Assembly (NCBI RefSeq): GCF_900111115.1
Contig: NZ_FOGD01000001.1
Span: 738,910-802,909 of the forward strand
DNA length: 64,000 bases
From: Giesbergeria anulus
GTDB taxonomy: Bacteria; Pseudomonadota; Gammaproteobacteria; Burkholderiales; Burkholderiaceae_C
Direction of reading: 5' to 3'
A program made the translations under genes and the position numbers. Under the pieces are notes generated by a model. That model worked only from the letters and a program-made list of their open reading frames with translations. It was not told the origin of the DNA and made no database searches. Positions 30,124 through 40,516 of this stretch are shown here, piece by piece; within the stretch, counting starts at the first letter, position 1, and every line of letters begins with the position of its first letter.

Positions 30124-30144
30124 TACAGAGCCAGGCTACGGCAA

Positions 30145-30178
30145 CAAAAAAGCCCCTTGCCTACAAAGGGCGGGGCTT
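30145..30178 (-). terminator. Chromosomal tRNA-Gly terminator, displaced by the element
   Basis: On the minus strand AAGCCCC..GGGGCTT forms a stem followed by seven T. It lies just beyond the left att copy. It matches closely the hairpin next to the intact tRNA (40,374-40,408). It is read as the original terminator of the tRNA-Gly gene, now separated from it by the inserted DNA. Confidence 0.65.
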
Positions 30179-30187
30179 GGAAGGCGC

Positions 30188-30207
30188 TGGAGCGGGTGAA
30201 GGGAATC
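30188..30207. repeat. attL: 20-bp copy of the tRNA-Gly 3' end
   Basis: TGGAGCGGGTGAAGGGAATC is identical to 40,443-40,462, which is the last 20 bases (complement) of tRNA-Gly including CCA. It marks the left boundary of the integrated element. Confidence 0.9.
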
Positions 30208-30245
30208 ACATTTCCCTCTGTAGATTGGTGAAAAATACAAAAAGA

Positions 30246-30264
30246 ACCAACAAAAAGACCAACA
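30246..30264 (+). promoter_or_regulatory. Integrase arm-type sites, left end
   Basis: Two direct ACCAACA copies (30,246 and 30,258), 12 bases apart, 40-60 bases inside attL. The same heptamer occurs five times, in both orientations, inside the right end (40,278-40,339), as expected of arm sites of a tyrosine integrase. Confidence 0.6.
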
Positions 30265-30350
30265 AAAAGAAAAGTGTCCCCGTATTGCTGGCGCTTTGGT
30301 AGCTATGGTTTTTGTAGTGGTGCTATGTGCGGGATTTTTCCCCGTGGCAT

Positions 30351-30607
30351 GGCGGGAAACTTTCCCGCCTATCTTGCTGGTGCCTGTTGCGCCACTGCCA
30401 CGCTGGCAAGCTCCACGGCCTGCCTATGCGGGTGGTGGCTGGTCTAGGCACGGTGGGGTGGCGAATCTGCACCCCATGTCCATCATGGACATACCGCATG
30501 GGGCTGGTGGCTGGGAACGGTTATGCGCTCAGTTCAATTGAGGGCATAAAACGAAACTTCCGTAGTAGCGCTGGGCTGGCTGCGGGCATGGGCTAGATTC
30601 AATCTAG
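30351..30607. repeat. Three perfect odd palindromes with central C; no convincing gene from 30,208 to 30,786
   Basis: This 0.58-kb end of the element holds no convincing gene. It holds GGCGGGAAA-C-TTTCCCGCC (30,351-30,369), ATGTCCAT-C-ATGGACAT (30,476-30,492) and CTAGATT-C-AATCTAG (30,593-30,607). All are perfect, each has a single central C, and their centres are 124 and 116 bases apart. CCCCAT/ATGGGG (30,472-30,503) encloses the second. A near-repeat, TGCGGGATTT..CCCCGT, occurs at about 30,328 and 30,615. A cis-acting role is likely; which one is unknown. Confidence 0.6.
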
Positions 30608-30786
30608 GGTTAGATGCGGGATTTCCCCGTATGTGCGCCAGCAAGGTGTGTCCGCGATGGCGCGCTTGAAGTCTTGCGGTGCAAGGGTTGGGCCTGCCTC
30701 GTTTGCTATATTGGAGCCGTCTCCTGAATTCGTTGAGCCAGACCGTTCGGATGCCTTCTTCGCATCAACACTGGATACTCTCGGCT

Positions 30787-31098
30787 TCAGGAGATTTTTG
30801 TTTGCGCCTTGGATTCGCCGGTCACTTCGGCGGTGGCTGCGGCAAAGCCTTTTTGCTGGGCGTGCCCGTGTTTCGCAACAGGTGGGCAAACTTTTCCCAC
30901 CTGTTCGTCCTCCGCGTCATAGCTCTCCAGCGAGTAATCCGGCGACGGTTCCGGGTGCAGCGCCACCCAAACCTCTTTGCGGCGGGCTGTGTAGTGGGAG
31001 CGCTGGGGTAGGACTAGGGCACTGCCAGCGCCAGCACCTACCCAATGTTGTTGGGTTGGTTTGTGAGTATCTTTGGGATAGTCGCAAAAGTGCGTCAT
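30787..31098 (-). CDS. Hypothetical protein (103 aa), element
   Basis: A small uncertain gene; no family recognised. The product is hydrophilic (EPSPDYSLESYDAEDEQVGK, KHGHAQQKGFAAATAEVTGE) with no membrane segment. In its favour, it has the GC-rich third positions typical of the region, lies on the same strand as the genes upstream, and is 33 bases from the previous candidate. Against it, the only purine-rich sequence (AAGGG) touches the ATG, and it overlaps imperfect repeats. A competing frame between 30,917 and 31,204 is also open. Confidence 0.35.
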   Translation of the reverse strand: MTHFCDYPKDTHKPTQQHWVGAGAGSALVLPQRSHYTARRKEVWVALHPEPSPDYSLESYDAEDEQVGKVCPPVAKHGHAQQKGFAAATAEVTGESKAQTKIS

Positions 31099-31128
31099 CC
31101 CTTGGTGGTGCTACCTTCCTGCTACTTT

Positions 31129-31355
31129 TTGCTACCTTGGGTCTGCTGCGTTTTGCTGCATCTTGCTGCGTTTGGGCTGAGACCTCATTGGGATTGACGC
31201 GCAACAGTGGACGGCGTACAAATGAGTGCAGCCCGGCGATAGGGGCGACACTTGAATCAGCTTGCTGGTCAGGACGCCCATAGGAATCACGGGCTGCTTC
31301 GGCGTCTTGCTACCTTGGGCTGTCGCGTTTTGTCGCGCACTGTCGCGTTTGGGCT
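31129..31355. repeat. Two imperfect ~50-bp repeat units of triplicated hexamers
   Basis: Units at 31,129-31,179 and 31,307-31,355 both begin TTGCTACCTTGGG. Each then carries three copies of one hexamer (GCTGCG/GCTGCA in the first, GTCGCG in the second), about ten bases apart, and ends CGTTTGGGCTG. The layout is conserved although the repeated hexamer differs. They partly overlap a low-confidence gene. Confidence 0.5.
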
Positions 31356-31383
31356 GGGCTGCAACCATTGCCTCTGCAACCAC
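31132..31383 (-). CDS. Hypothetical protein (83 aa), element
   Basis: An uncertain small gene downstream of the winged-helix gene on the same strand (77 bases away), with AGAGG 3-8 bases before its ATG. No family recognised. The repeat units of this region encode similar peptides at its two ends (QPKRDSARQNATAQGSK and QPKRSKMQQNAADPR). The frame may therefore be a by-product of the DNA repeats rather than a selected protein. Confidence 0.35.
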   Translation of the reverse strand: MVAEAMVAAQPKRDSARQNATAQGSKTPKQPVIPMGVLTSKLIQVSPLSPGCTHLYAVHCCASIPMRSQPKRSKMQQNAADPR

Positions 31384-31460
31384 CTTGGAAACTTGCCGCT
31401 GGAAACTAAGGTTTTCTCAGGTTTTCTTTGGTTGCACGTTTCACTTCCAGACGTATGAGC

Positions 31461-31859
31461 CTACCGCCCTGCACCGAAGGCCAGCGCCACACCCGCCAGC
31501 AGCTTGGACAGCGCCAGCGTTTCCCGTGGCGTCAGCGCCTCGCAAACATCATCCCCCACCTCTACCTTGAACCGACCACGCGGTAAGGCTGTCACGCTAA
31601 CGGCGCGGTCTGGCGTGGTGTCCACTAGCTCGAATAGGCCAGCGTATAGCGAACGAATCAGGCCATCTTCCCGTAGCCTAGTGATGTGGTCATCAACGGT
31701 CGTCATGCGCAGCCCCGTTACCTCAGTAATGCGGCGGCGGCTTGCCTGATGGCCGTGCTCTGTCAGGTCGGTGATGGCTTTGAGGATGGTTTCTCGGTTC
31801 TGCCCAGGGCTTTTTGGCGGGCTGGCTTCAGTAGGTGTGTCATCGCTGGCGGTTGTCAT
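31461..31859 (-). CDS. Winged-helix/HTH protein, element
   Basis: A 132-residue basic-acidic protein whose middle (residues ~25-85) reads as a helix-turn-helix: RETILKAITDLTEHG, then RRRITEVTGLRMTTVDDHI and TRLREDGLIRSLYAGLFELV, the latter forming a recognition helix and wing. The C-terminal half contains short beta-like segments and ALTPRETLALSKLLAG. ATG at 31,859 follows AAAGG. Upstream in-frame codons to 32,126 run through the SSB gene and are not used. It may regulate the replication operon or help replication initiation; the sequence does not decide. Confidence 0.6.
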   Translation of the reverse strand: MTTASDDTPTEASPPKSPGQNRETILKAITDLTEHGHQASRRRITEVTGLRMTTVDDHITRLREDGLIRSLYAGLFELVDTTPDRAVSVTALPRGRFKVEVGDDVCEALTPRETLALSKLLAGVALAFGAGR

Positions 31860-31934
31860 GGGCGCCTTTCTGGATTCGTTCTCCGAAGTCTCTGCGCGCA
31901 CGGCGCGAAAGCCAATCCCTGAAAGGGGGCTACC

Positions 31935-31962
31935 AAAAGCAAAACCCGGCACAGGGCCGGGC
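31935..31962 (-). terminator. Terminator after element ssb
   Basis: On the minus strand CCGGC-CCTGT-GCCGG is followed by GTTTTGCTTTT, about 45 bases after the SSB stop. A ~40-base relative of this block lies after the integrase gene (38,954-38,987). Confidence 0.6.
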
Positions 31963-32007
31963 TGGTGGGGTGGAGTTTCACCACCCCATGCGCTGCAACC
32001 GGGGGTT

Positions 32008-32433
32008 TCAGAACGGCATGGGGCCATCGTCCGGCCACGGCGGTGGCTCAGACTGCGCACGGGCGCGCCATGCCTCATCTTTGGGGCGCTGGCTTTGGGG
32101 TTGGGCATCCCCTTGGGTAGCTGCACGCTTGTGGCGCACTTGGTACACGGTCAATACCTGCTGCGCCACCACGTCTAGGGCTGGGCGGTACTGCCCCTCC
32201 TTGTCCTGCCAAGTGCCTACCTTGAGTGGGCCAGCCACTGCCACAGAGTCACCTTCTTTCAGCGCCAGCAATGCGGCCACGGGGCCATCGTCAAAGGCAA
32301 TCACGCTGACAAAAACAGATTCGCCTTCGGTGGTGGGCGTGCGAACTTTCGCCAGTGCAAAGGGCTTGCCGCTCTTACCGGTGCGCTGGGTGGGCGTGCC
32401 GTGTACCTTGCCTGCAATCAAGACGTCAATCAT
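32008..32433 (-). CDS. ssb: Single-stranded DNA-binding protein (element-encoded)
   Basis: A 141-residue OB-fold protein. The N-terminal domain (MIDVLIAGKVHGTPTQRTGK, SVIAFDDGPVAALLALKEGDSVAVAGPL) matches SSB. A Gln/Arg/Pro-rich linker follows. The C-terminal tip DDGPMPF resembles the DDIPF-type acidic tail of SSB that docks replication partners. It diverges from typical chromosomal SSB, so it is probably dedicated to the element's own replication. ATG at 32,433 follows GGGGGAG; a TTG 6 bases upstream is possible. The start overlaps the end of the preceding small gene by 8 bases. Confidence 0.8.
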   Translation of the reverse strand: MIDVLIAGKVHGTPTQRTGKSGKPFALAKVRTPTTEGESVFVSVIAFDDGPVAALLALKEGDSVAVAGPLKVGTWQDKEGQYRPALDVVAQQVLTVYQVRHKRAATQGDAQPQSQRPKDEAWRARAQSEPPPWPDDGPMPF

Positions 32434-32632
32434 TTTCAATCTCCCCCTTCATGGTGCGCACTATGGCTTCCAACTTGCCCACCAGCTCGTGCATGAAGTG
32501 CTTTCCGATAGGTACGATGACAAAGTTATCTTCATCGTCCGTGGCAATAAGCTTGTTTTCAGCGTATTGGATTGACCAGCCGTCAGGGTGTTGGTACAGC
32601 GTGATGGGGGCTAGAACGGGCGGGCGTGTCAT
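32426..32632 (-). CDS. Hypothetical protein (68 aa), element
   Basis: Small soluble protein with no recognised family. The sequence LYQHPDGWSIQYAENKLIATDDEDNFV followed by PIGKHFMHELVGKLEAIVR suggests a short beta segment and a C-terminal helix. Translationally linked at both ends: its ATG overlaps the previous stop, and its end overlaps the SSB start by 8 bases. That tight packing is the main evidence that it is real. Confidence 0.55.
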   Translation of the reverse strand: MTRPPVLAPITLYQHPDGWSIQYAENKLIATDDEDNFVIVPIGKHFMHELVGKLEAIVRTMKGEIEND

Positions 32633-33237
32633 GTGGATTCCTTTCCTGCTTCAAAAGCCTGTTCATAGGTGGCGTAGAGGTGCTGGCCTGTAGCGCAGCG
32701 CTGGCTGCTCCCCCCACTGCGGGCGGTGGCTTTGCAAGTGGTGCAGCTCCAGTGGTGGGCCTGATAGGCGCGGTCTGCCACGTTCCACGGCTGGTGAACC
32801 GAGAACTTGGGTAAGGGCTTTGCTGGGGATGGGGTAGCGGCTGGCGACACCACGGCGGGCGGTGCTGGCTTGGGCGCTACGGATGGCACCAGCTTGGACA
32901 GTTCGCCCCGAAGGTGTGCAGCAAGCCCTTGCCGGTCGTTGGGTGGGGTTGCCTCGATGTCGGCGCGCCAGTCGGTGCGTGCCTTGTCGCTGGCTTGGAT
33001 GGCAGTGCAGTAGCGGTCGGCCAGCGCCAGCAATTGAGCCATGCCGGGGTTAGGTGGTGGCGCTTCCAGTCCGTGGCTAATGGCTAATCCGGCTAACGTG
33101 GCTAATTTGGCTAATTCATCCGGGCTTTCGGGCTTTTGATTAGCCAAATTAGCCGGATTAGCCGCGTTAGCCATTAGCCAGTGGTTAGATTCACGTTTTG
33201 CGGCGGCGTCCCTGATAGCGCTCAAGTCAACCAACAT
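32629..33237 (-). CDS. Hypothetical protein with Cys cluster, element; contains in-frame palindrome
   Basis: A 202-residue protein with no recognised family. Its start overlaps the end of the DUF3987 gene by 11 bases. Residues ~20-55 are encoded by the 105-bp GGCTAA palindrome, giving a mirror-like peptide (ANAANPANLANQ, then ELAKLATLAGLAIS). The C-terminal part has a possible zinc-binding set: WSCTTCKATARSGGSSQRC followed by ATGQH. The middle is Pro/Ala-rich. A related but decayed stretch, with the same palindrome and the LLALA segment, lies at 35,805-35,985. Either this gene was partly duplicated or both loci received the same palindromic unit. Confidence 0.55.
   Translation of the reverse strand: MLVDLSAIRDAAAKRESNHWLMANAANPANLANQKPESPDELAKLATLAGLAISHGLEAPPPNPGMAQLLALADRYCTAIQASDKARTDWRADIEATPPNDRQGLAAHLRGELSKLVPSVAPKPAPPAVVSPAATPSPAKPLPKFSVHQPWNVADRAYQAHHWSCTTCKATARSGGSSQRCATGQHLYATYEQAFEAGKEST
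33075..33179. repeat. Iteron palindrome, copy 1 (GGCTAA x5 / TTAGCC x5)
   Basis: Five GGCTAA at 33,075, 33,082, 33,091, 33,100 and 33,109 (steps 7, 9, 9, 9). Then five TTAGCC at 33,140, 33,149, 33,158, 33,167 and 33,174 (steps 9, 9, 9, 7). The two arms are almost perfect inverted repeats of about 40 bases around a 25-base centre. A near-identical second copy lies at 35,867-35,980 in the same orientation. Confidence 0.9.
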
Positions 33238-34777
33238 GGCGCACCTCCCAGCCGTCGCCAATCGGGCGAACGTAGCCGCGCTGGGTCAGTTGCTCCAACA
33301 GCACATTGATACCTTTCGCTTTCAGGCTGCGAATGGCACGCGGGCACTTTTGCAGCACAGCAGCACGGGCCACCAACGGCCCCTGCTCTTGCAACCAGTC
33401 CCACAGCACGCGCAAGCGCTTGTCGGTCTGCGCTTGTTTGCCGGTGCCCATCAGGCGCAAGTGCTCAGACAGGTAGAACGTCACCAGCTCCATTGCGCCG
33501 TCCATGGCTTGCACGTCAATGACTGCGGCTTGGGGGTTGTTGAACAGGGTAATCACGCCCGCAATGCGCGCTGCCTGTTCTGCGGCCTTGCTGGCAAAGG
33601 CACGGGCCTGCTCTAGCTCTGCCCCGTCCGCCTGCTGCACTTCAATGGCGTTGTAGAACTCAATCCACAGGGCGCGGGCCTGCGGGTCTAGGGGTAGCCC
33701 CTTGGGTTTGAGCTCGTAGCCGTCGCCGTTGGGCCAGCGCTGCGGGCTGGTGTCGAGCAGTTGCCCCATGCGGTGGGCGTAGGCCAGTACTGCCGGGTTT
33801 TCCATCGGGTTGTTGCCGTTGTAGAAGCGCGTTCCTGCCAGCGTCTGGGGTTGTGCTACCAGGCACCGGGCTAGGAAGCCTTGGCCATCGGCCAGCGGGT
33901 CAGATAGCAGCTCACGCAGTAGCAGCGGTTGCACCATGATGTGCAGGGCAATGCGGCGGCCTAGCAGCGATGTGTAGCCCGTGCCCCCACGCATCACGTC
34001 GAGGGCTTCGGCACCCCAGCCCTTGAGGAAAAAGGCCATCGCCCCCATGCGGTTGACCTCTTTCATGCTGTGGCCCCCCAGCACTTCACCGCCTTCGGCA
34101 CTGAACACACCGATACTGCTTTGGCCCTTGAGTAGCCGGGCCACGCCTTCCACAGTGGCATTGCCCACGGTCAGGGACTGCATGAGCGGCTCTTGCGGTT
34201 CTGGGTCGCCTTTTTTGGAGGTGGCCTGCTCTTGCCGGTAGGCTTCCATGGCATGGTGGTGCTGTCGGCTTTGCTCCTTCTTACGGCGGGCAATCTCCAT
34301 ACAGGCCACATCGTCCACGGCACTCTTTCTATCGCCGCTGCTGCCACTGGAGACAAGGTAGAGGGTGAGCGGACAGGCTTTGCCATGCGGCAACACCACG
34401 TCTGCAAGGGGTTGCGCGGCCAGACTGGCAGCGGCCAATACACTGCCACCAGCCATAGCATCGGGCGCTTGCACGTCTTCGGCAATGGCTTGGGCTGCGG
34501 CTCCTAGCAGTGGCCCCAGTGCGGCAAAAGGGAAGGACTGGGGCGGGCGGGTGTCGCCGGTGTCTTCAGGCAGTGGCACCAGTTCGGGCCAGTCGGTGAC
34601 GGTGACGCCTGTGTCGGCAAGGGCATTGCGTGCGTCGATGTCGGCCATCTCTAGTGCAGTCATGGCGTTATGTAGGGCGATGGCCTTGGTACTGTCGCCC
34701 GTTGCAATGACCGCATCAATCTGCGCCTGCAATGCGGCAGCTTTGGCACCGCCGGGGCGGTTGAGGTCGTTATTCAT
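33227..34777 (-). CDS. DUF3987 (YfjI-like) replication-type ATPase, element
   Basis: A 516-residue protein of the DUF3987 family, found in phages, satellites and islands and usually thought of as a helicase/primase-associated replication protein. A P-loop-like SSGSSGDRKSAVDD lies near residues 143-156, followed by SIGVFSAEGGEVLGG (Walker B-like region) and the conserved RIALHIMVQP and QGFLARCLVAQP stretches. The C-terminal ~90 residues form a probable helical/winged domain (LRVLWDWLQEQGPLVARAAV). It is the largest gene of the element. It sits between the two GGCTAA palindromes and is followed by SSB, so it is the best candidate for the element's replication initiator or helicase. Confidence 0.75.
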   Translation of the reverse strand: MNNDLNRPGGAKAAALQAQIDAVIATGDSTKAIALHNAMTALEMADIDARNALADTGVTVTDWPELVPLPEDTGDTRPPQSFPFAALGPLLGAAAQAIAEDVQAPDAMAGGSVLAAASLAAQPLADVVLPHGKACPLTLYLVSSGSSGDRKSAVDDVACMEIARRKKEQSRQHHHAMEAYRQEQATSKKGDPEPQEPLMQSLTVGNATVEGVARLLKGQSSIGVFSAEGGEVLGGHSMKEVNRMGAMAFFLKGWGAEALDVMRGGTGYTSLLGRRIALHIMVQPLLLRELLSDPLADGQGFLARCLVAQPQTLAGTRFYNGNNPMENPAVLAYAHRMGQLLDTSPQRWPNGDGYELKPKGLPLDPQARALWIEFYNAIEVQQADGAELEQARAFASKAAEQAARIAGVITLFNNPQAAVIDVQAMDGAMELVTFYLSEHLRLMGTGKQAQTDKRLRVLWDWLQEQGPLVARAAVLQKCPRAIRSLKAKGINVLLEQLTQRGYVRPIGDGWEVRHVG

Positions 34778-34858
34778 GGTGGCTCCCTTTGCCGGGTGTT
34801 GGCAATGCAGCGGCTTGACCCTGCTGCACAGGGCTTTGAATTTGGGTCATGTTTTCCT

Positions 34859-35053
34859 CTACTCGGTGAGGTTTGCGGGGGTGTTGGGGGGCTGGCTGGC
34901 GATGAACTCGCGCAGCATGGTTTTGGCAACCATCAAGTCGGTCATGCGTTCGGCAGCATCAGACAGACCGGGGCCAGCTTGCTCGCGTAGGTCGGCGGTG
35001 GTGGCGTCAAGCTCGCCATCAAGCCATTGCAGGTAGGTTGCGGTGGTGCTCAT
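34859..35053 (-). CDS. Hypothetical protein (64 aa), element
   Basis: Short, acidic, helical protein (YLQWLDGELDATTADLREQ, AAERMTDLMVAKTMLREFI) with no recognised family. Its ATG overlaps the stop of the upstream small gene (ATGA), and the DUF3987 gene starts 81 bases after it. Longer upstream codons fall inside the neighbouring gene and are not used. Confidence 0.55.
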   Translation of the reverse strand: MSTTATYLQWLDGELDATTADLREQAGPGLSDAAERMTDLMVAKTMLREFIASQPPNTPANLTE

Positions 35054-35322
35054 TTCGTCACCCCCTTGGCTTGGTCGGCTGCATCGCGCAAAACCGCTGC
35101 CGTCATCAGTGCTGCTGCAAACTCGCGGGCCGATTTGGTGCACAGCTTCACATGAAAACCATTGCCCGCCAGCGCCATCCCAAGGTTGATTTCACCGGGT
35201 TCTATTGCAGATATGAACGAGGGGCCGCCCACCTTGGCCGAAGCTGCCACTTTGCCATCCCTGCCATACAGGTCTAGGCCAGCCACAAAGCAAATTTCTT
35301 GGGGAAACTTTGGGTAGTTCAC
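35050..35322 (-). CDS. Hypothetical protein (90 aa), element
   Basis: Small soluble protein starting at GTG (VNYPKFPQEICFVAGLDLYG). The middle has beta-like segments (GKVAASAKVGGPSFISAIEPG) and the C-terminal half is helical (AREFAAALMTAAVLRDAADQA). No family recognised. Its start overlaps the stop of the 68-aa gene (GTGA) and its stop overlaps the next ATG, so three small genes are translationally chained ahead of DUF3987. Confidence 0.55.
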   Translation of the reverse strand: MNYPKFPQEICFVAGLDLYGRDGKVAASAKVGGPSFISAIEPGEINLGMALAGNGFHVKLCTKSAREFAAALMTAAVLRDAADQAKGVTK

Positions 35323-35525
35323 ACTGCCACCTCCATGACTTGCAGTGCCTTGAGCAGTTGCACGGCCTTGCGGCGGGCTGCGGTTAGGTTGCCCTTGCGC
35401 AGATAGAACCCGGCCAAGCTGGCGCTGGTGGTGGCCTCTAGGAGGGCGTGGGCTGTGGTGGTGGGGATGGCCGGGGCGGCCTTGGGCGTGGGCGCGGCAG
35501 TGCGCGCCAATGTGACCTGTTGCAT
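35319..35525 (-). CDS. Hypothetical protein (68 aa), first gene of the element's replication operon
   Basis: Short basic protein; residues ~25-65 form amphipathic helices (AHALLEATTSASLAGFYLRK, AARRKAVQLLKALQVMEV). No family recognised. ATG at 35,525 is preceded by TAGGAG nine bases upstream, a good ribosome binding site. The frame stays open upstream to 36,131, but that part is non-coding repeat DNA without a start signal. It is the promoter-proximal gene of a minus-strand operon running to SSB. Confidence 0.55.
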   Translation of the reverse strand: MQQVTLARTAAPTPKAAPAIPTTTAHALLEATTSASLAGFYLRKGNLTAARRKAVQLLKALQVMEVAV

Positions 35526-35562
35526 GGTCTTGGCTCCTACGGGATGAAGAACCACACGTTGC

Positions 35563-35756
35563 GTTTCTACGCACAACGGGTGGGCATGGCGGTTAGAAAC
35601 ACGTCCGTAGCCGTGCGGGTGTCCTTGCGGATAACCCACGCCATGCCCATAAACCATGCCGCTATGGGAAAGTCCATAACGGAAAAATTGGGGCGTAACA
35701 AAACCCCGCTCATCGGTGGGAGTTGCTACCTCTACGGATTTGGTGTTTCTACGCAC
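35563..35756. promoter_or_regulatory. Dyad and direct repeats upstream of the replication operon
   Basis: The ~600-base gap 35,526-36,123 has no convincing gene. It holds GTTTCTACGCAC twice (35,563 and 35,745), the first within an imperfect dyad GTTGCG..CACAAC. It also holds an inverted repeat CCGCTATGG-N6-CCATAACGG at 35,659-35,682 (one mismatch). These are candidate operators for the operon beginning at 35,525. The rest of the gap is the second GGCTAA palindrome and the DUF4160 promoter. Confidence 0.45.
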
Positions 35757-35866
35757 CGGGCCTCTCGGCTTGGGGCCAATTTTGCCACAGCTCACACCCG
35801 TGGTGCAGGCCAGCGCCAGCAGCGGGACAATGCCGGGGGCTGGTGCTGGGGGTGTTTCCAGTCTGT

Positions 35867-35980
35867 GGCTAATGGCTAATCCGGCTAACGTGGCTAATTT
35901 GGCTAATTCATCGGGGCTTTTGGGCTTCTGATTAGCCAAATTAGCCGGATTAGCCGGATTAGCCACGTTAGCCATTAGCC
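35867..35980. repeat. Iteron palindrome, copy 2 (GGCTAA x5 / TTAGCC x6)
   Basis: GGCTAA at 35,867, 35,874, 35,883, 35,892 and 35,901 (steps 7, 9, 9, 9, identical to copy 1). TTAGCC at 35,932, 35,941, 35,950, 35,959, 35,968 and 35,975, one 9-bp unit more than copy 1. A further GGCTAA lies at 35,988. Similarity to copy 1 extends about 60 bases to the left of the palindrome. Here it lies between genes, just before the DUF4160 promoter. Confidence 0.9.
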
Positions 35981-36086
35981 AGACACCGGCTAACGGTGCC
36001 AAATTGACCCAATCTGTCGCCGTTGTCGCCACGTCGCCAGTGCTGGCTGCATGGCCGGTAGTGCGGGCCAGCGCCAGCGGGCCACC

Positions 36087-36116
36087 TTGCGGGTAGTGTA
36101 ATAGTTTCACTACAAT
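36087..36116 (+). promoter_or_regulatory. Promoter with operator-like dyad for the DUF4160/DUF2442 pair
   Basis: TTGCGG (36,087) and TACAAT (36,111) are 18 bases apart. A near-perfect dyad, GTAGTGTAA..TTTCACTAC (36,093-36,113), fills the spacer and overlaps the -10. The ATG of the first gene is only 8 bases after the -10, so the transcript may start at or just before the A of ATG and be leaderless. Binding by the HTH protein encoded at 36,354 would block this promoter. Confidence 0.6.
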
Positions 36117-36123
36117 AAAGCGC

Positions 36124-36357
36124 ATGACCAATTACCCCGCTATCGGAGACTGGCGCATCCGAATCAACAGCATGGAACATGGCGTGGCCCATGTCCATGT
36201 GGAATTTCGTGATGGGCACCGCGTAGTGGTGGCGATTGAAACCCGCAAGGTACTGGCGGGAAGCGTGGTTCCTGCAAAGCGGCTGGTGTCTGCCTTGCAA
36301 GACATTGAGGCGAATGCGGCCAAGTACCTGGCCGAATACCGGAGGTTGAATCCATGA
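36124..36357 (+). CDS. DUF4160 family protein (possible toxin-antitoxin component)
   Basis: A 77-residue protein matching the short DUF4160 fold: WRIRINSMEHGVAHVHVEFRDG (the His-x-His-x motif), then HRVVVAIETRKVLAG and a C-terminal helix KRLVSALQDIEANAAKYLAEY. DUF4160 genes commonly precede DUF2442 genes and the pair is often suspected to be a toxin-antitoxin system; I know of no defined activity. It overlaps the DUF2442 gene by 4 bases (ATGA). These are the only plus-strand genes of the element. No ribosome binding site is visible, consistent with a leaderless mRNA. Confidence 0.72.
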   Translation: MTNYPAIGDWRIRINSMEHGVAHVHVEFRDGHRVVVAIETRKVLAGSVVPAKRLVSALQDIEANAAKYLAEYRRLNP

Positions 36358-36788
36358 AGGCCATCACCCTGAAAGCGGCGCGTATCGTTGGCACGCTGGC
36401 CCTTGAAATCGACTGGAGCACCGGCGAAACTTTGCGGGCTGACTTGGCAGACTGGCTGCGCCCCCCTATGGATGCGCTGCACGATGCGGCGTTCTTCGCA
36501 CAAATGCAGGTGGACGACTGGGGCACGGGCCTGAACTGGCCCGGTGGGCTTGATCTGGGGGCCGATACCCTCTACACCCTGTGCCGAGAACAGGCGGGCC
36601 TGCCCACCGCGCAAGGCTTTGACGCATGGATGCAGCGCAATGGCCTGTCGTTGGTCACAGCAGCAGAGTCGCTGGGTATGACGCGGCGCATGATTGCCCA
36701 CTACCGCACGGGCAGTCGTCCCATTCCCAAGGTGGTGGGGCTGGCTTGCACCGGCTGGGAAGCCAAGCGCCAAGGCATCAGCCGATAG
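36354..36788 (+). CDS. DUF2442-HTH fusion protein (possible antitoxin/autorepressor)
   Basis: A 144-residue protein. The N-terminal ~80 residues are DUF2442-like (LALEIDWSTGETLRADLADWLRP, then FAQMQVDDWGTGLNWPGG). The C-terminal ~55 residues form a helix-turn-helix (LSLVTAAESLGMTRRMIAHYRTGSRPIP) as in XRE-like antitoxins. The fusion supports a role as DNA-binding autoregulator of the pair, acting on the dyad at 36,093-36,113. It converges on the alpA gene, 113 bases apart. Confidence 0.72.
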   Translation: MKAITLKAARIVGTLALEIDWSTGETLRADLADWLRPPMDALHDAAFFAQMQVDDWGTGLNWPGGLDLGADTLYTLCREQAGLPTAQGFDAWMQRNGLSLVTAAESLGMTRRMIAHYRTGSRPIPKVVGLACTGWEAKRQGISR

Positions 36789-36901
36789 AAAACCAGCGTA
36801 GGGGGTGAGCAGCGCCAGCGCTTGCGTGGTCTGGGTGGTGGTGGGAGAATGGCCTTGTTCTGTGTGGCCTGTCGTGATTTTCGGATTGCGGCGGGCCATT
36901 T

Positions 36902-37243
36902 TTATTGCACCTCCGCCAGTTGCACCGCGTTGGTATTGGTTTGCTGCGCCAGCCACTGGCGAATATCACCACAGCGCCATGCGGTAATGCGTGGCCCCAA
37001 TTTCAAGGGTTTTGGAAAATCACCCGCCTTCACCTTGCGCCAGAGTGTGGGGGCGCTAAATGGCAGTAGTGCATGGACACCGGGGCGCTTGGGGCTAGGC
37101 ACCAATTGAGACTCACGCAACAGGGCGCAGTCTGGCAATTGGTCGAACGAGGTGGGAATGGGCGCGGCTGGTGTAGCTGGCGCTGGTGGTTTGGCGGTGG
37201 CTTTTTTGGCGTGCCTAGAACTGAACCCGAAACCTAATGACAT
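36902..37243 (-). CDS. AlpA-like phage regulatory protein
   Basis: A 113-residue protein. A basic Pro/Ala-rich N-terminal extension is followed at ~60-105 by an AlpA/MerR-like helix-turn-helix (LPFSAPTLWRKVKAGDFPKP, then LKLGPRITAWRCGDIRQWLAQQ). AlpA proteins activate integrase/excision genes of P4-like islands. The N-terminal extension makes it longer than usual AlpA (~70 residues). ATG at 37,243 has GGAG nine bases upstream. Short AATAGGCC-type inverted sites lie just before it (37,300-37,391). Confidence 0.78.
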   Translation of the reverse strand: MSLGFGFSSRHAKKATAKPPAPATPAAPIPTSFDQLPDCALLRESQLVPSPKRPGVHALLPFSAPTLWRKVKAGDFPKPLKLGPRITAWRCGDIRQWLAQQTNTNAVQLAEVQ

Positions 37244-37299
37244 TTAGTGACTCCATTCGTGAAAACGTGGGGTCAGTGTCTGGATTTTGGTGGCGTCTG

Positions 37300-37391
37300 A
37301 ATAGGCCATATAGGCCACCTATTAGCCCTTGGAAATACCCAGCCTATTTCCTAAGTCATTGAAAACAATCAAATTTAATACCCGGCCTATT
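37300..37391. promoter_or_regulatory. AATAGGCC/GGCCTATT sites upstream of alpA
   Basis: Four related sites between the 263-aa gene and alpA: AATAGGCC (37,300), ATAGGCC (37,310), AGCCTATT (37,341) and GGCCTATT (37,384). The first two are direct and the last two inverted. The arrangement suggests cooperative binding by a regulator, possibly AlpA itself. Confidence 0.4.
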
Positions 37392-38178
37392 CTTTGAATT
37401 TCACTGGACGGCCTCGCGCCTTGTCAGGGTTAGCTACGGTGGCAATCCGTTCTATCGCCGGGATACCCAGTGCTGGGAAGTTTACGTTTAGGTATTCGAT
37501 CAGCCGGTTTCTAAAGGTATCAGCCGGGTTGCCATACCCGTTGAAGACGGCGCGGAATGCCATGTTTGCCGCGTCCAGTTCTTCTGGTAGGTCTGCCGGG
37601 TCGATATCTGGCGTGGGCGGTGCCACATCAGGGGCTGGGCTGGGTACTGGTGCCATGGTGGGTACAGTCGCCTTGCTAGGCACTGGTGCCGGGGTGGCAC
37701 CGATGGCTGGGTCTAGTGCTGGTGGCAGCGGAATAGGCCACCAATAACCATGTGCCTCGGCCCATTGCTTTAGGTCTTGTGCATCGAAGGCAAGGGACTT
37801 CTCAAGTCCATGGCCTCTACCATCCATTTCCATGCCTGTCGGCAGTAAATAGCCGTCATCGGCCGCTTGTTTCAATCCGGTTTGAATTGGGCCAAATATT
37901 GGCCATACTTCATCGGGTATTGCTCCCGTTTCTCCCATGGGGGGAATGCCAGCTATAGCAGCCGCAGCTTCGCACAACGTAAATCTACGAACCCCAGCAC
38001 AAGCCTTTGCCCAATCTGGAATGTGGCGCTCTGGGACGGTGGGTTCCGATGGCTGTTTCGCTACTCGGGATTCAAGGTCTAGACCGTGCTGCCTTAGAAG
38101 CTGAAAGACTTCGGCGCGACGGAAACCAATGAGGTAGTAATCAGGGTCTATGGCCATATCAGAAAGGGATATCGTCAT
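37387..38178 (-). CDS. Hypothetical protein (263 aa), element
   Basis: No family recognised. Residues ~1-150 contain a segment rich in aromatic and acidic residues (RRFTLCEAAAAIAGIPPMGE, which could be a helical domain with a conserved CEAAAAIAGI). Residues ~150-200 are a Pro/Ala/Val-rich linker (PAPVPSKATVPTMAPVP), and the C-terminal ~60 residues form another globular part ending in ARGRPVKFKE. The layout resembles small phage regulators with two domains joined by a flexible linker. An alternative start (38,157) lies one base after the stop of the preceding gene. It overlaps that gene by 20 bases if the first ATG is used. Confidence 0.55.
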   Translation of the reverse strand: MTISLSDMAIDPDYYLIGFRRAEVFQLLRQHGLDLESRVAKQPSEPTVPERHIPDWAKACAGVRRFTLCEAAAAIAGIPPMGETGAIPDEVWPIFGPIQTGLKQAADDGYLLPTGMEMDGRGHGLEKSLAFDAQDLKQWAEAHGYWWPIPLPPALDPAIGATPAPVPSKATVPTMAPVPSPAPDVAPPTPDIDPADLPEELDAANMAFRAVFNGYGNPADTFRNRLIEYLNVNFPALGIPAIERIATVANPDKARGRPVKFKE

Positions 38179-38458
38179 TGGCCCAACTAGGAACGGTCAC
38201 TTCTGTGTACTGTCCATGCACAGCAACACTCCTCAGCAGTCGCTCACCAATAGCTGAATCTGTCCCCCCAAAATACAGATCGCCATATTCCTGCCAAGGT
38301 ATATAGTCAAATTCGCCTAATCCTGAAAGCGTAGTGTGCAAAAACTGCGCCGCATCCTGCAATGTGCAGCCGTCGTGTTTAACGATGGTTTCCAGCAGTT
38401 CATGCAGGCTGATAAATGCAGTCTTCCGCTCGTGTAGCTTGGCAGCAATGATGCTCAT
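38159..38458 (-). CDS. Hypothetical protein (99 aa), element
   Basis: No family recognised. Small acidic protein (KTAFISLHELLETIVKHDG, QDAAQFLHTTLSGLGEFDY) ending in the acidic/hydrophobic tip NDDIPF, which looks like the DDIPF SSB tail. That ending is notable, because it could let the protein contact SSB-binding partners. GGGGGA lies upstream of the ATG at 38,458. It is the first gene after the iteron-rich gap 38,459-39,006. Confidence 0.55.
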   Translation of the reverse strand: MSIIAAKLHERKTAFISLHELLETIVKHDGCTLQDAAQFLHTTLSGLGEFDYIPWQEYGDLYFGGTDSAIGERLLRSVAVHGQYTEVTVPSWANDDIPF

Positions 38459-38601
38459 GCGTCCCCCTGTGTCGCAAGCCCTGAAATGAGAAAGCGCCCC
38501 AGCCGGTCAGGGGTTCCGGCGTACCAGCGGGTAATTAGTCCGTGGCTTGGGGCGCTGGGGTCTATTGTGGCACGGGGGGCACGGCACCAGTGGGAAGGAC
38601 A

Positions 38602-38865
38602 CCAGCGCCAGCAAACAATGGCACAGCACGGGCTGGCAATACCAAGGTTTACCCAAAGTTTTGAGCGTGCGCAGTCCCCGGGAATGTCAAGGTTTAGATA
38701 AGGTTTTGGGTAGGGTGCCAGCGCCAGCGAACAATGGTACGGGCTGGCGCTGATGGTGGCAGCGGTAACCCCGGTAACCCCAAGTAACCCGGCTGGGGTT
38801 ACCGCATTTTTTGGGTGTTTTCCCTCTGTAGAAGGGGTGTAGTAACCCCAGTAACCCCGGTAACC
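38602..38865. repeat. Iteron-rich non-coding region (GTAACCCC array and longer repeats)
   Basis: The ~550-base gap 38,459-39,006 has no convincing gene. GTAACCCC occurs at 38,765, 38,774, 38,842 and 38,851, with shorter matches at 38,784 (GTAACCC) and 38,860 (GTAACC) and an inverted copy GGGGTTAC at 38,795; spacing is 9-10 bases within clusters. A longer direct repeat, CCAGCGCCAGC(A/G)AACAATGG, is at 38,602 and 38,718 (19/20 identical). CAAGGTTTA occurs twice between them. This is the promoter region of the 38,458 operon and may be a replication or regulatory locus. Confidence 0.65.
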
Positions 38866-38953
38866 TCTAAAAATACAAGTCGCGCGCGTTTGTTTTTTGT
38901 TCCCCCGCTTTCTGTTTCTAATCTGGCGCGCATTCCTGCCTATGGCGTCCTCA

Positions 38954-38987
38954 GAAAGCACAAACCCAGCGCAGTGGCCGGGCTGGT
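38954..38987 (-). terminator. Probable terminator after the integrase gene
   Basis: On the minus strand CCAGC-N10-GCTGG is followed by GTTTGTGCTTT, shortly after the integrase stop. The block resembles the terminator after SSB (31,935-31,962) over about 40 bases. Confidence 0.45.
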
Positions 38988-39006
38988 GGTGTGGAACTGG
39001 TGGGGG

Positions 39007-40254
39007 CTATGCAGCCTTGCTGTGCAGGGGGATGATGTCTGCACCCGTGCGCAGCCGGTCTAGGTAGTCAGCCCATGTTTGCATCATGGCGCGGCGCTGC
39101 TCCATGTATTCAGCACGGTCGTACGCACTACCAAGGGGGCCGCTTTTACCGTGGGCCAACTGCGCTTCCACCATGTTTGCATCTATGCCCGTCATCCGTT
39201 CGGCAAGCATGGTGCGGGCCATTGCCCGAAAGCCGTGCGCCACATGGTCATCGCTGCCAAAGTCCAAGCGCTTCAAGGCGGCATTGATGGTGTTGTCAGA
39301 CATTGGGCGCGAGGTAGAACGGGCACCGGGAAAGACATAGCGCCCGCTGCCTGTCAGGGGTTGTAGCGCCCTCAAGATGGTGATGGCTTGCTTGGCCAAC
39401 GGGAGGTAATGCGGTTTTCCGTTGACCTTTTCATGCCGGGTTCGCTTCATATCGGCTGGGGGTATGGTCAGCATGGCCTTGTCAAAGTCAATCCATGCCC
39501 ATTCCATCGCCCGGATGTTGCCGGGGCGCTGGAAAAACAAGGCGGCAAGCTGTAGCGCGGCCACGGTGGTGGGAAGTCCCGTGTAACCGTCGATGGCCCG
39601 CAACAGTGCCCCCACTTGCGCCGGTTCAGTGACCGCAGCAAAGTGCTTGGCTACATGGGGCTGCAATGCCCCCTTCAAGTCTGGTACCGGGTTTTGCTCT
39701 ATGCGGCCTGTCTGCACTGCATACCGGAACACCTGCCCCGCCATTTGTTGCAGGTCGTGGGCGGTGCTCAAGATGCCCTTGGCCTCTACCTTGCGCAAGG
39801 CGGCCAGCACGTCCTTGGCCTTGATTTTCTCCAGCGGCCTTGTCCCCAGCACGGGGAACAGATACAGCTCGTTCATGCGCAGCCATTTGTGTGCGTGGCT
39901 TTCGCTCCAGCTAGGAGCCTTGAGCTGGTGGAACTCACGCGCCACAGCCTCATAGGTGTTCGTGGCTGCCACTTTAGCGGCGTGCTTGTCCTCTTGCTTG
40001 GCGGTGCTGGGGTCTATGCCTTGGGCTAGTTGTTCCTTGGCGGTATCGCGGGCCTTGCGGGCTTGGGCCAGCGACACGGCAGGATAGACGCCTATATAGA
40101 GGGTCTTCTGTTTGTCGTGCATCCGGTAGGCCATGCGCCAGTATTTGCCCACTGCCTTGACGTGCAGGAACATCCCCCCGCCATCGCTGTATTTATCGCC
40201 AGCCGGTTTGCCGCTGTGCTTTACGTTCTTGATAAAAGTGTCGGTCAGTGCCAC
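39007..40254 (-). CDS. int: P4-type tyrosine recombinase/integrase
   Basis: Integrase of the element. The 415-residue product has the DUF4102 arm-binding N-terminus (ALTDTFIKNVKHSGKPAGDKYSDGGG), a core-binding domain (~95-190) and the catalytic domain with Arg in FFQRPGNIRAMEW, HxxR in VAHGFRAMARTML, His in LAHGKSG and the Tyr nucleophile in YDRAEYMEQRR. GTG at 40,254 is chosen because relatives begin there (VALTDTF); upstream codons to 40,323 run into the arm-site region. The gene starts 189 bases from attR, reads away from the tRNA and has arm-type repeats upstream. Confidence 0.93.
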   Translation of the reverse strand: MALTDTFIKNVKHSGKPAGDKYSDGGGMFLHVKAVGKYWRMAYRMHDKQKTLYIGVYPAVSLAQARKARDTAKEQLAQGIDPSTAKQEDKHAAKVAATNTYEAVAREFHQLKAPSWSESHAHKWLRMNELYLFPVLGTRPLEKIKAKDVLAALRKVEAKGILSTAHDLQQMAGQVFRYAVQTGRIEQNPVPDLKGALQPHVAKHFAAVTEPAQVGALLRAIDGYTGLPTTVAALQLAALFFQRPGNIRAMEWAWIDFDKAMLTIPPADMKRTRHEKVNGKPHYLPLAKQAITILRALQPLTGSGRYVFPGARSTSRPMSDNTINAALKRLDFGSDDHVAHGFRAMARTMLAERMTGIDANMVEAQLAHGKSGPLGSAYDRAEYMEQRRAMMQTWADYLDRLRTGADIIPLHSKAA

Positions 40255-40277
40255 GGTACGCCATCCCCATGAGTGCC

Positions 40278-40339
40278 TGTTGGTTCCTGTTGGTGCCACG
40301 GGTCTGAGGAACCAACAAAACAACCAACAATTTGTTGGT
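40278..40339. promoter_or_regulatory. Integrase arm-type sites, right end
   Basis: Five copies of ACCAACA or its complement TGTTGGT: 40,278, 40,288, 40,311, 40,323 and 40,333. They lie between the integrase start and attR. Two more copies are at the left end (30,246-30,264). Confidence 0.6.
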
Positions 40340-40373
40340 CTGTCATGGTGCCCTATGAAGTGACATGAGACAA

Positions 40374-40408
40374 CAAAAAAGCCCCTATGCCTATGAAGCA
40401 GGGGGCTT
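40374..40408 (-). terminator. Terminator supplied by the element to tRNA-Gly
   Basis: On the minus strand AAGCCCCC..GGGGCTT is followed by TTTTTTGTTGTC. It is inside the element, about 35 bases past the tRNA 3' end. Its form copies the displaced chromosomal terminator (30,145-30,178). Confidence 0.7.
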
Positions 40409-40442
40409 GTGATACGGTATGAAGTGGCTTGAAACGCTGGGG

Positions 40443-40462
40443 TGGAGCGGGTGAAGGGAATC
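40443..40462. repeat. attR: 20-bp 3' end of tRNA-Gly
   Basis: Identical to attL (30,188-30,207). It contains the CCA end and the T-arm part of the intact tRNA-Gly, so integration keeps the tRNA functional. Confidence 0.9.
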
Positions 40463-40516
40463 GAACCCTCGTATGAAGCTTGGGAAGCTGCCGTTCTACC
40501 ATTGAACTACACCCGC
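40443..40516 (-). tRNA. tRNA-Gly (anticodon CCC)
   Basis: A complete 74-base cloverleaf with encoded CCA: acceptor GCGGGTG/CACCCGC, D arm GTTCAATGGTAGAAC, anticodon loop TTCCCAA (CCC), T arm AGGGTTCGATTCCCT. One C-T mismatch is seen in the anticodon stem (GCAGC/GCTTC). The gene resembles E. coli glyU, a known integration target. Its 5' end is only 11 bases after the livM stop on the same strand. Confidence 0.93.

Follow-up and report, generated by a model that had tools for sequence, protein, structure and literature searches.

A 64,000-nucleotide stretch of the Giesbergeria anulus genome (contig NZ_FOGD01000001.1; here the window) carries an island at a tRNA-Gly gene, and within this island a gene for a protein of the DUF3987/YfjI family lies between two arrays of a six-base repeat. 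With good confidence we read these arrays as iterons to which the DUF3987 protein binds through its C-terminal winged helix, array and protein most likely forming the initiator-origin pair of the island. Binding of the iterons by this protein is very probable because of the position of the arrays at DUF3987 loci, the covariation of protein and repeat, parallel switches in both, the sibling loci and a site next to yfjI in Escherichia coli K-12, and an origin function of the arrays is likely; physical binding, helicase action and origin function are what we infer from these patterns.

A sequence-only reading of the window had described five GGCTAA units followed by five or six TTAGCC units at mirrored steps of 7, 9, 9 and 9 bp, in two copies of the same orientation 2.8 kb apart with DUF3987 and small chained genes between them, and direct reading agrees on each point. 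In the downstream array GGCTAA starts at 33075, 33082, 33091, 33100 and 33109 and TTAGCC at 33140, 33149, 33158, 33167 and 33174, while in the upstream array GGCTAA starts at 35867, 35874, 35883, 35892 and 35901 (with a stray unit at 35988) and TTAGCC at 35932, 35941, 35950, 35959, 35968 and 35975, this last arm stepping 9, 9, 9, 9 and 7. Each copy belongs to a direct repeat of 119 nt whose two members have the same orientation, share 92% identity and lie 2,792 bp from each other. Between them the open reading frames (ORFs) include the one matching PF13148 at E 3e-76 and 257.4 bits, for a gathering cut-off of 27, which places the protein in the DUF3987/YfjI family.

A scan for 6-mers recurring at least three times at 7-12-bp steps returned 17 rows in the window, seven of them from the GGCTAA/TTAGCC arrays, and 0 rows in each of five mononucleotide shuffles of the window. 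Three GGCTAA units at 9-bp steps were matched nine times in the 3.42-Mb genome, always in the two copies, and a reversed-pattern control was matched nowhere in it, so chance or low complexity was rejected as the origin of the arrays. Among 399 genomes of the family three hold the pattern, the present one included; since the reversed control matches about ten genomes, the two single matches in other family genomes are at background level. Phage and plasmid records held no DNA relatives of the array at E 1e-5.

Repeat arrays at other DUF3987 loci

Relatives of DUF3987 were present in 25/399 genomes of the family, 20/369 of the class, 39/399 of the order and 33/398 of the phylum (the four samples overlap in part and the family sample used another threshold), and further relatives came from viral contigs, named plasmids and chromosomes. 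A single-protein DUF3987 scan of viral contigs found no relatives, nor did the further scans A4 and A5, and scan A6 gave no new contigs. The 159 DUF3987 ORFs that reach profile position 400 reduce to 137 distinct C-termini, a set closed before the last loci were added.

In 95 of the 137 a 6-mer array within 450 bp 3' of the domain scored above the best of 20 dinucleotide shuffles. A search of other DUF3987 elements had been proposed from the window alone, and arrays were indeed found 3' of the domain, an array score of at least 3 being reached in 98/137 of the intervals that cover the first 450 bp 3' of the domain end. Among the control intervals this score was reached in 0/137 of those covering the 450 bp that lead up to the domain end, in 4/130 of those at 450-900 bp on the 3' side and in 3/128 and 3/123 of two upstream sets. 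The earlier reading had also considered that such palindromes might be widespread in unrelated genes; this is not what was seen, the exact array being rare and arrays being clustered on the 3' side of DUF3987.

At the 95 loci the median distance from the DUF3987 stop to the first unit is 47 bp, and arrays reach up to 13 units. Two arms are present in 67, with a median spacer of 27 bp, and the arms are convergent in 56, on a single strand in 28, divergent in 10 and mixed in one. Steps of 9 bp make up 261 of the 347. In L018, L020, L022, L027, L028 and L050, which are GGCGAA/TGCGAA/TGCGGA elements, arrays are nested, the outer arms having mostly 9-bp steps and the inner ones steps of 10-11 bp. 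The Psychrobacter plasmid pA37P2 carries TGCTTAAAC repeats 3' of its DUF3987 gene. A circular Pseudomonas putida record of 19,249 bp (NZ_CP043577, L195) combines YfjI with an integrase, restriction/defence-like genes and GGCGAC units, and could be an excised island; its annotation names no replication initiator besides YfjI, with ORFs in annotation gaps read by eye only.

The array falls within a downstream ORF in 73/95 loci and 9 bp make three codons, which would suit repeats that are a protein feature, namely three-residue repeats of a small downstream protein of which the DNA pattern is a by-product. We find this hardly credible, as 22/95 arrays lie outside such an ORF, 86/347 steps are of 7, 8, 10 or 11 bp and shift the frame, the K-12 site described below is intergenic and the letters of the repeat follow the helix of the neighbouring DUF3987 protein.

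Both window copies also fold strongly as single-stranded DNA (z -9.4 and -10.9), and the palindrome might therefore act as a hairpin, whether as a terminator, a structured RNA or a stem-loop origin of the pRN1 type, where the available text of the source places a stem-loop 54 bp past the 3' end of the replication gene (PMC4234260). The likeness to pRN1 is a palindromic element about 50 bp 3' of a replication gene; the difference is that stem integrity is required there, as far as that text goes (PMC4234260), whereas the spacers of DUF3987 arrays show no selection for pairing, spacer triplets matching equally well between mirrored and non-mirrored units (0.53 and 0.53, 24 arrays). Moreover 28/95 arrays have units in one orientation only and 10/95 are divergent, and in an Rfam search only tRNA reached the gathering score, sub-threshold microRNA matches being taken as palindrome artefacts. 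A hairpin role is accordingly very improbable, and binding of the units as iterons remains the reading that we prefer.

Covariation of the winged helix with the repeat core

Cores among the DUF3987 loci include TGCGAC, TGCTAT, TGCTAC, TGCTAA, GGCTAA, GGCGAC, TGCGAA and others. Their phase was set by a score that favours K-G-C, G/T and A and is blind to the protein, so that the shared GC of the cores is partly by construction and the link to protein residues is not. Each core position was compared with well-filled alignment columns, much of the helicase included. The column at Q476 of the window protein was the top one for core base 4, with a mutual information excess of 0.81 bit and z 34 (next column z 7), and the columns at residues 472 and 480 were the best for base 6 (z 17) and base 1 (z 10) respectively, in z values that ignore the relatedness of the loci. 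Gln476 goes with T at base 4 in 41/41 loci and Arg476 with G in 35/37; Lys476 goes with GG at positions 4-5 in 5/7, R472 with C6 in 38/45 and R480 with G1 in 15/23. That the DUF3987 protein might bind the arrays had been suggested from the window alone, and this covariation across 95 loci strongly supports it as the probable binder.

The residue-base rule was written down before the later test loci were collected, and L171-L175, which come from contigs already in the set, were left out of that test. In the later loci Gln goes with T in 27/27 (26 TA), Arg with G in 18/18 (14 GA) and Lys with GG in 2/3, and the 21 later Gln or Arg loci whose winged helix is <50% identical to any earlier one agree at base 4 in 21/21. 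Still later array loci likewise obey the rule, namely L176, L177 (a weak array), L178, L184 (close to L074) and Paracoccus L190; L179-L183, five rows of which two share a C-terminus, have no array and were left out of scoring.

Residue and base also change together. A helicase-only tree holds 91 of the 95 loci (L010 and L011 were not long enough to enter it), and in 74 of the 91 the residue is Q or R and the base G or T. Fitch parsimony on this tree counts 15 changes of the residue, 14 of the base and 15 joint ones, so that about 14 coordinated switches are needed and almost every switch is coordinated. For the 588 pairs with at least 50% helicase identity, which are not independent of one another, residue 476 differs in 265 of the 267 pairs that differ in base 4 and in 37 of the 321 that share it. 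L036 and L041 are 96% identical in the helicase, yet combine Q with TGCTAC and R with TGCGAC respectively.

The sibling loci narrow the change down further. In the same place the window has GGCTAA, L010 GGCGAC and L011 GGATAA. Relative to the window, L010 has one difference and L011 none in the 113 residues before the helix, nine and ten differences in the 12-residue helix stretch, and seven and 12 in the last 37 residues. Beside the upstream array of the window stand three GTCGCC units, and a blastn match joins the second array of L010 (684-715) to window positions 36014-36045 at 94% over 32 bp; on this sequence match the units at 36016 are plausibly the remnant of an earlier specificity. L009, L010 and L011 are three contigs of one metagenome-assembled genome with pieces of near-identical DUF3987 elements, at least two of them of different specificity, which points to a mixed population or several copies.

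A structural model of the window protein (predicted local distance difference test, pLDDT, 85) shows a helicase-like core and a C-terminal winged helix, the latter made of a strand (468-470), helices at 471-477, 480-483 and 486-499 and two wing strands. Of the three residues, 472 and 476 fall within the first helix of the helix-turn-helix (HTH) and 480 begins the following one, and on this reading the bases would be contacted by this first HTH helix and not by the canonical recognition helix, which would be unusual. Arg-G and Gln-A/T contacts are common in protein-DNA recognition. Foldseek with the whole model places MCM helicases in the top rows (E 6.6e-6, with a low template modelling score of 0.35), the C-terminal domain alone has weak matches with many winged helices among them (best E 0.035), and sequence searches against solved structures gave nothing convincing (best E 0.71 and 0.076). 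As the fold matches are weak, the mode of DNA binding is offered as a prediction. The C-terminal third of the protein matches the DNA-primase family phrog_3022 (E 1.1e-8). DUF3987 has been predicted, in the accessible part of one study, to be a helicase of mobile-element replication (PMC5862659).

In the mechanism that we propose the C-terminal winged helix would bind the neighbouring iterons, several copies of the protein sitting on 9-bp-spaced units of both mirrored arms. The helicase domain would then open the DNA at the arrays, perhaps with the help of the element-encoded single-strand DNA-binding protein (SSB). The pairs would be R476 with G4, Q476 with T4, K476 mostly with GG at 4-5, R472 mostly with C6 and R480 often with G1, and each element would keep a private specificity, which could change when a few neighbouring residues of the winged helix and the repeats are altered jointly.

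Enterobacterial sites, known replicons and alternative roles

The YfjI protein of the E. coli K-12 prophage CP4-57 has Gln at the position aligned with 476 (IILQFGP), and the rule thus pointed to GCTA repeats. No array lies 3' of K-12 yfjI; such repeats were found upstream, where a 2+2 palindrome, TGCTATTTCCGCCATTAATAGCGGAATAGC (one unit imperfect), sits in the intergenic region about 45 bp before the gene, at about 2758908-2758937 of NC_000913.3, its GCTAT core and the Gln agreeing with the rule. CP4-57 therefore shares with the window the DUF3987 family, an AlpA neighbour and obedience to the rule, and differs in having only 2+2 units, placed upstream of the gene instead of 3'. A 101-bp query that includes the palindrome has matches in 416/5,426 E. 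coli genomes, and of five palindrome-only matches among those listed three were examined, all three lying just upstream of a YfjI gene. Similar GCTAT-type mini palindromes, mostly read by eye, occur shortly upstream at other enterobacterial YfjI loci with Gln. At L072 and L185-L189 a gene of the inovirus Gp2/YfjJ family follows YfjI.

These positions raise the question as to whether the arrays are operators, DUF3987 binding controlling transcription and replication being independent of the arrays. The E. coli and Citrobacter sites (L192 excepted) lie roughly 35-70 bp upstream of yfjI, after alpA, and the upstream copy of the window precedes the gene cluster, as would be expected of operators. 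However, most arrays lie 3' of the gene, usually in the next ORF and with up to 13 units, and the protein is a predicted helicase; we therefore hold a purely regulatory function to be distinctly unlikely, while noting that both roles can coexist.

The sequence-only reading had compared the two window arrays with the origin (ori) and cis replication region (crr) of phage P4, and of this comparison the layout stood and the protein part did not. In the annotation of P4 (NC_001609) crr is placed 46 bp past the stop of alpha and ori beyond the 5' end of alpha, and the type-1 repeats face both ways, with some spacings of 9 or 10 bp; in the window one array likewise follows the DUF3987 stop after 48 bp and the other lies on the 5' side of the gene, a site layout of the P4 type. 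P4 differs in that its crr consists of a direct repeat of 120 bp and its ori contains type-2 repeats as well, and most DUF3987 loci show one site. The DUF3987 profile met P4 alpha at E 0.19, below inclusion, profile comparison gave a probability of 0.2%, and none of the PHROG families is common to the window protein (2 matches) and alpha (17). The protein was accordingly rejected as an alpha-type primase-helicase, having neither detectable sequence similarity nor a shared PHROG family, and since the layouts are alike and the proteins unlike, the window system may work like P4 without belonging to the P4 family. The C-terminal part of P4 alpha corresponds to the solved domain 1ka8, which we take to be its winged-helix origin-binding domain. 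On its other strand the type-1 core of P4 (L197, 4291-4590) reads GGTGAA and fits the K-G-N-G/T-A-N shape of DUF3987 cores, maybe by chance.

A stricter form of the comparison holds that the island needs both cis sites, of which one would be the origin and the other a partner resembling crr. The window arrays, 48 bp beyond the 3' end of the gene and about 1.1 kb away on its 5' side, are placed much like crr and ori of P4, type-1 repeats being present in both P4 sites, and a second array of the same core clearly outside the gene on its 5' side is seen in three of the 17 other long loci (L080, L160 and L163). Against this, the other 14 show no such pair (four of the 17 hold little or no 5' DNA), the second array of L164 falls inside the long DUF3987 reading frame and was not counted as flanking, and the DUF3987 protein has no detectable relative in alpha. 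A flanking pair is thus not the rule, being seen in only 3/17, and a requirement for two sites seems unlikely.

Phage-inducible chromosomal islands (PICI), including the Staphylococcus aureus pathogenicity islands (SaPI), are small integrase-borne islands that in the accessible text have an origin directly 3' of the initiator gene with two iteron sets (PMC6092414). Iterons directly 3' of the initiator gene were likewise found in the window and not in the enterobacterial loci examined, and two sets flanking an AT-rich region were not found. Measured against that description (PMC6092414), the initiator here is of the DUF3987/YfjI family, there is no clear AT-rich region between the arms, and the arms are mostly mirrored with 9-bp steps, in an array mostly within the next ORF. 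In the RepA_N-ori modules of phage-inducible chromosomal island-like elements (PLE), satellites of Vibrio cholerae, the DNA-binding domain of the initiator and the iterons also covary and are swapped as a module, and the parts of the two studies available to us describe RepA_N-family initiators with roughly 30-bp semi-palindromic iterons in two groups (PMC7145576, PMC8263062); the DUF3987 proteins form a different family, in which specificities are many and residue and base are related.

Phage-inducible chromosomal minimalist islands (PICMI) share with the window AlpA, an integrase and a DUF3987-type prim gene involved in replication, deletion of prim from PICMI115 lowering circular and concatemeric copies in the text consulted (PMC10803314). 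In the PICMI model as given there prim is defined by DUF3987 plus DUF5906, integration is at fis and the main text does not use the word iteron (PMC10803314), whereas the window island sits in tRNA-Gly and DUF5906 has no match in the window up to E 0.1. A classification of the window island as a PICMI was rejected on the integration site and DUF5906, AlpA and integrase being present. Indirect support for a role of DUF3987 in replication comes from this effect of prim on copy level, from the helicase prediction cited above (PMC5862659) and from the circular P. putida record L195.

A number of observations weigh against arrays as iterons and origins of DUF3987 elements. At 42/137 loci no array rises above the shuffles in the 3' scan, and the spacer is not clearly AT-rich (AT 0.43 against 0.39 for the locus over 55 arrays, 37 of them higher). 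The Psychrobacter plasmids L193 and L194 (10-13 kb) carry RepM in addition to the DUF3987 gene. The enterobacterial sites, L192 aside, lie upstream of yfjI as an operator would; a strict 2+2 scan matches only 5/11 enterobacterial loci, in two of these five the match is confined to a more distant upstream site, and L192, a more distant YfjI copy with Gln, shows no site. Exceptions to the rule at base 4 are L011 (Arg, GGATAA) and L039 (Arg, TGCTGT), those at positions 4-5 are L104 (Gln, TG), five Arg loci (GG or GC) and the Lys loci L032 and L147, and Psychrobacter L191 (Asn), left out of scoring, has TGCTTA-like repeats contrary to the Asn-GA trend. Finally, the covariation is correlative and its z values take no account of relatedness.

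The tRNA-Gly island and the DUF3987 family

The features of the island are collected in Table 1. Exact repeats of 16 nt, CAACAAAAAAGCCCCT, at 30142-30157 and 40371-40386 lie near both island ends and are possibly arm sites of the integrase. Arrays at 9-bp steps next to an integrase are also seen elsewhere, with GGCTAC in L009 (66-182) and TGCGAC in L160 (8512-8624), the latter being the core of the DUF3987 array of L160 itself. At the end of the gene cluster (31461-31862, minus strand) a small winged-helix protein (phrog_8117, unknown function) is a candidate binder of the GGTTAC arrays. Beside the upstream array (36124-36788, plus strand) a DUF4160 protein and a chained DUF2442/HTH protein form a possible toxin-antitoxin pair, the DUF4160 protein having a weak match to the DhiT toxin below the cut-off.

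Table 1 Positions of the features discussed, numbered from the first letter of the window
Feature	Position	Strand	Remarks
tRNA-Gly island, 10.3 kb	30188..40516		from the att-like repeat at 30188 to tRNA-Gly (40443-40516)
Probable att repeat TGGAGCGGGTGAAGGGAATC, left island end	30188..30207
Small ORF downstream of DUF3987	32629..33237	-	ATG read at 33237; N-terminal part encoded by the downstream array
SSB, in the DUF3987 gene cluster	32008..32439	-	PF00436, E 5.9e-10
Putative downstream iteron array, 5 x GGCTAA then 5 x TTAGCC	33075..33179		48 bp 3' of DUF3987 stop, inside next ORF
DUF3987/YfjI-family protein, 516 aa	33227..34777	-	PF13148, PHROG DNA helicase; proposed initiator
DUF3987 codons 472-480 (AAVLQKCPR)	33338..33364	-	residues 472, 476 and 480 linked by covariation to core positions 6, 4 and 1
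Putative upstream iteron array, 5 x GGCTAA then 6 x TTAGCC	35867..35980		about 1.1 kb 5' of DUF3987 gene
Three GTCGCC units beside upstream array	36016..36040		possible remnant of the GGCGAC specificity of sibling locus L010
AlpA-family regulator/excisionase	36902..37243	-	PF05930, E 7.6e-9
Integrase-proximal GTAACC/GGTTAC arrays	38765..38865		about 9-bp steps
Tyrosine integrase	39007..40257	-	PF13356, PF22022, PF00589
tRNA-Gly (ccc), right island end	40443..40516	-	matching att repeat at 40443-40462

In the literature searched, which covered few subscription papers, neither iterons of DUF3987 elements nor the residue-to-base relation were found described. We lean somewhat towards a wider view in which DUF3987/YfjI elements would be a large and little-described class of replicons whose initiators read their origins by a simple residue-to-base code that is transferable in part and resides mainly in the helix preceding the canonical recognition helix, and in which repeated joint switches of helix and iterons leave remnants, perhaps under pressure from incompatibility or from anti-satellite phages as described for PLE and Odn. 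DUF3987, listed in Pfam as a family of unknown function and occurring in many islands and in a cryptic prophage of E. coli, would gain a probable role as an origin-binding initiator helicase, and its likely binding sites can be located from sequence alone. The loci provide a natural series of switches in protein-DNA specificity in which one residue predicts one base, and they open to test, in harmless laboratory strains, both the mutual avoidance of satellite and island replicons and the ways in which winged helices acquire a new target.

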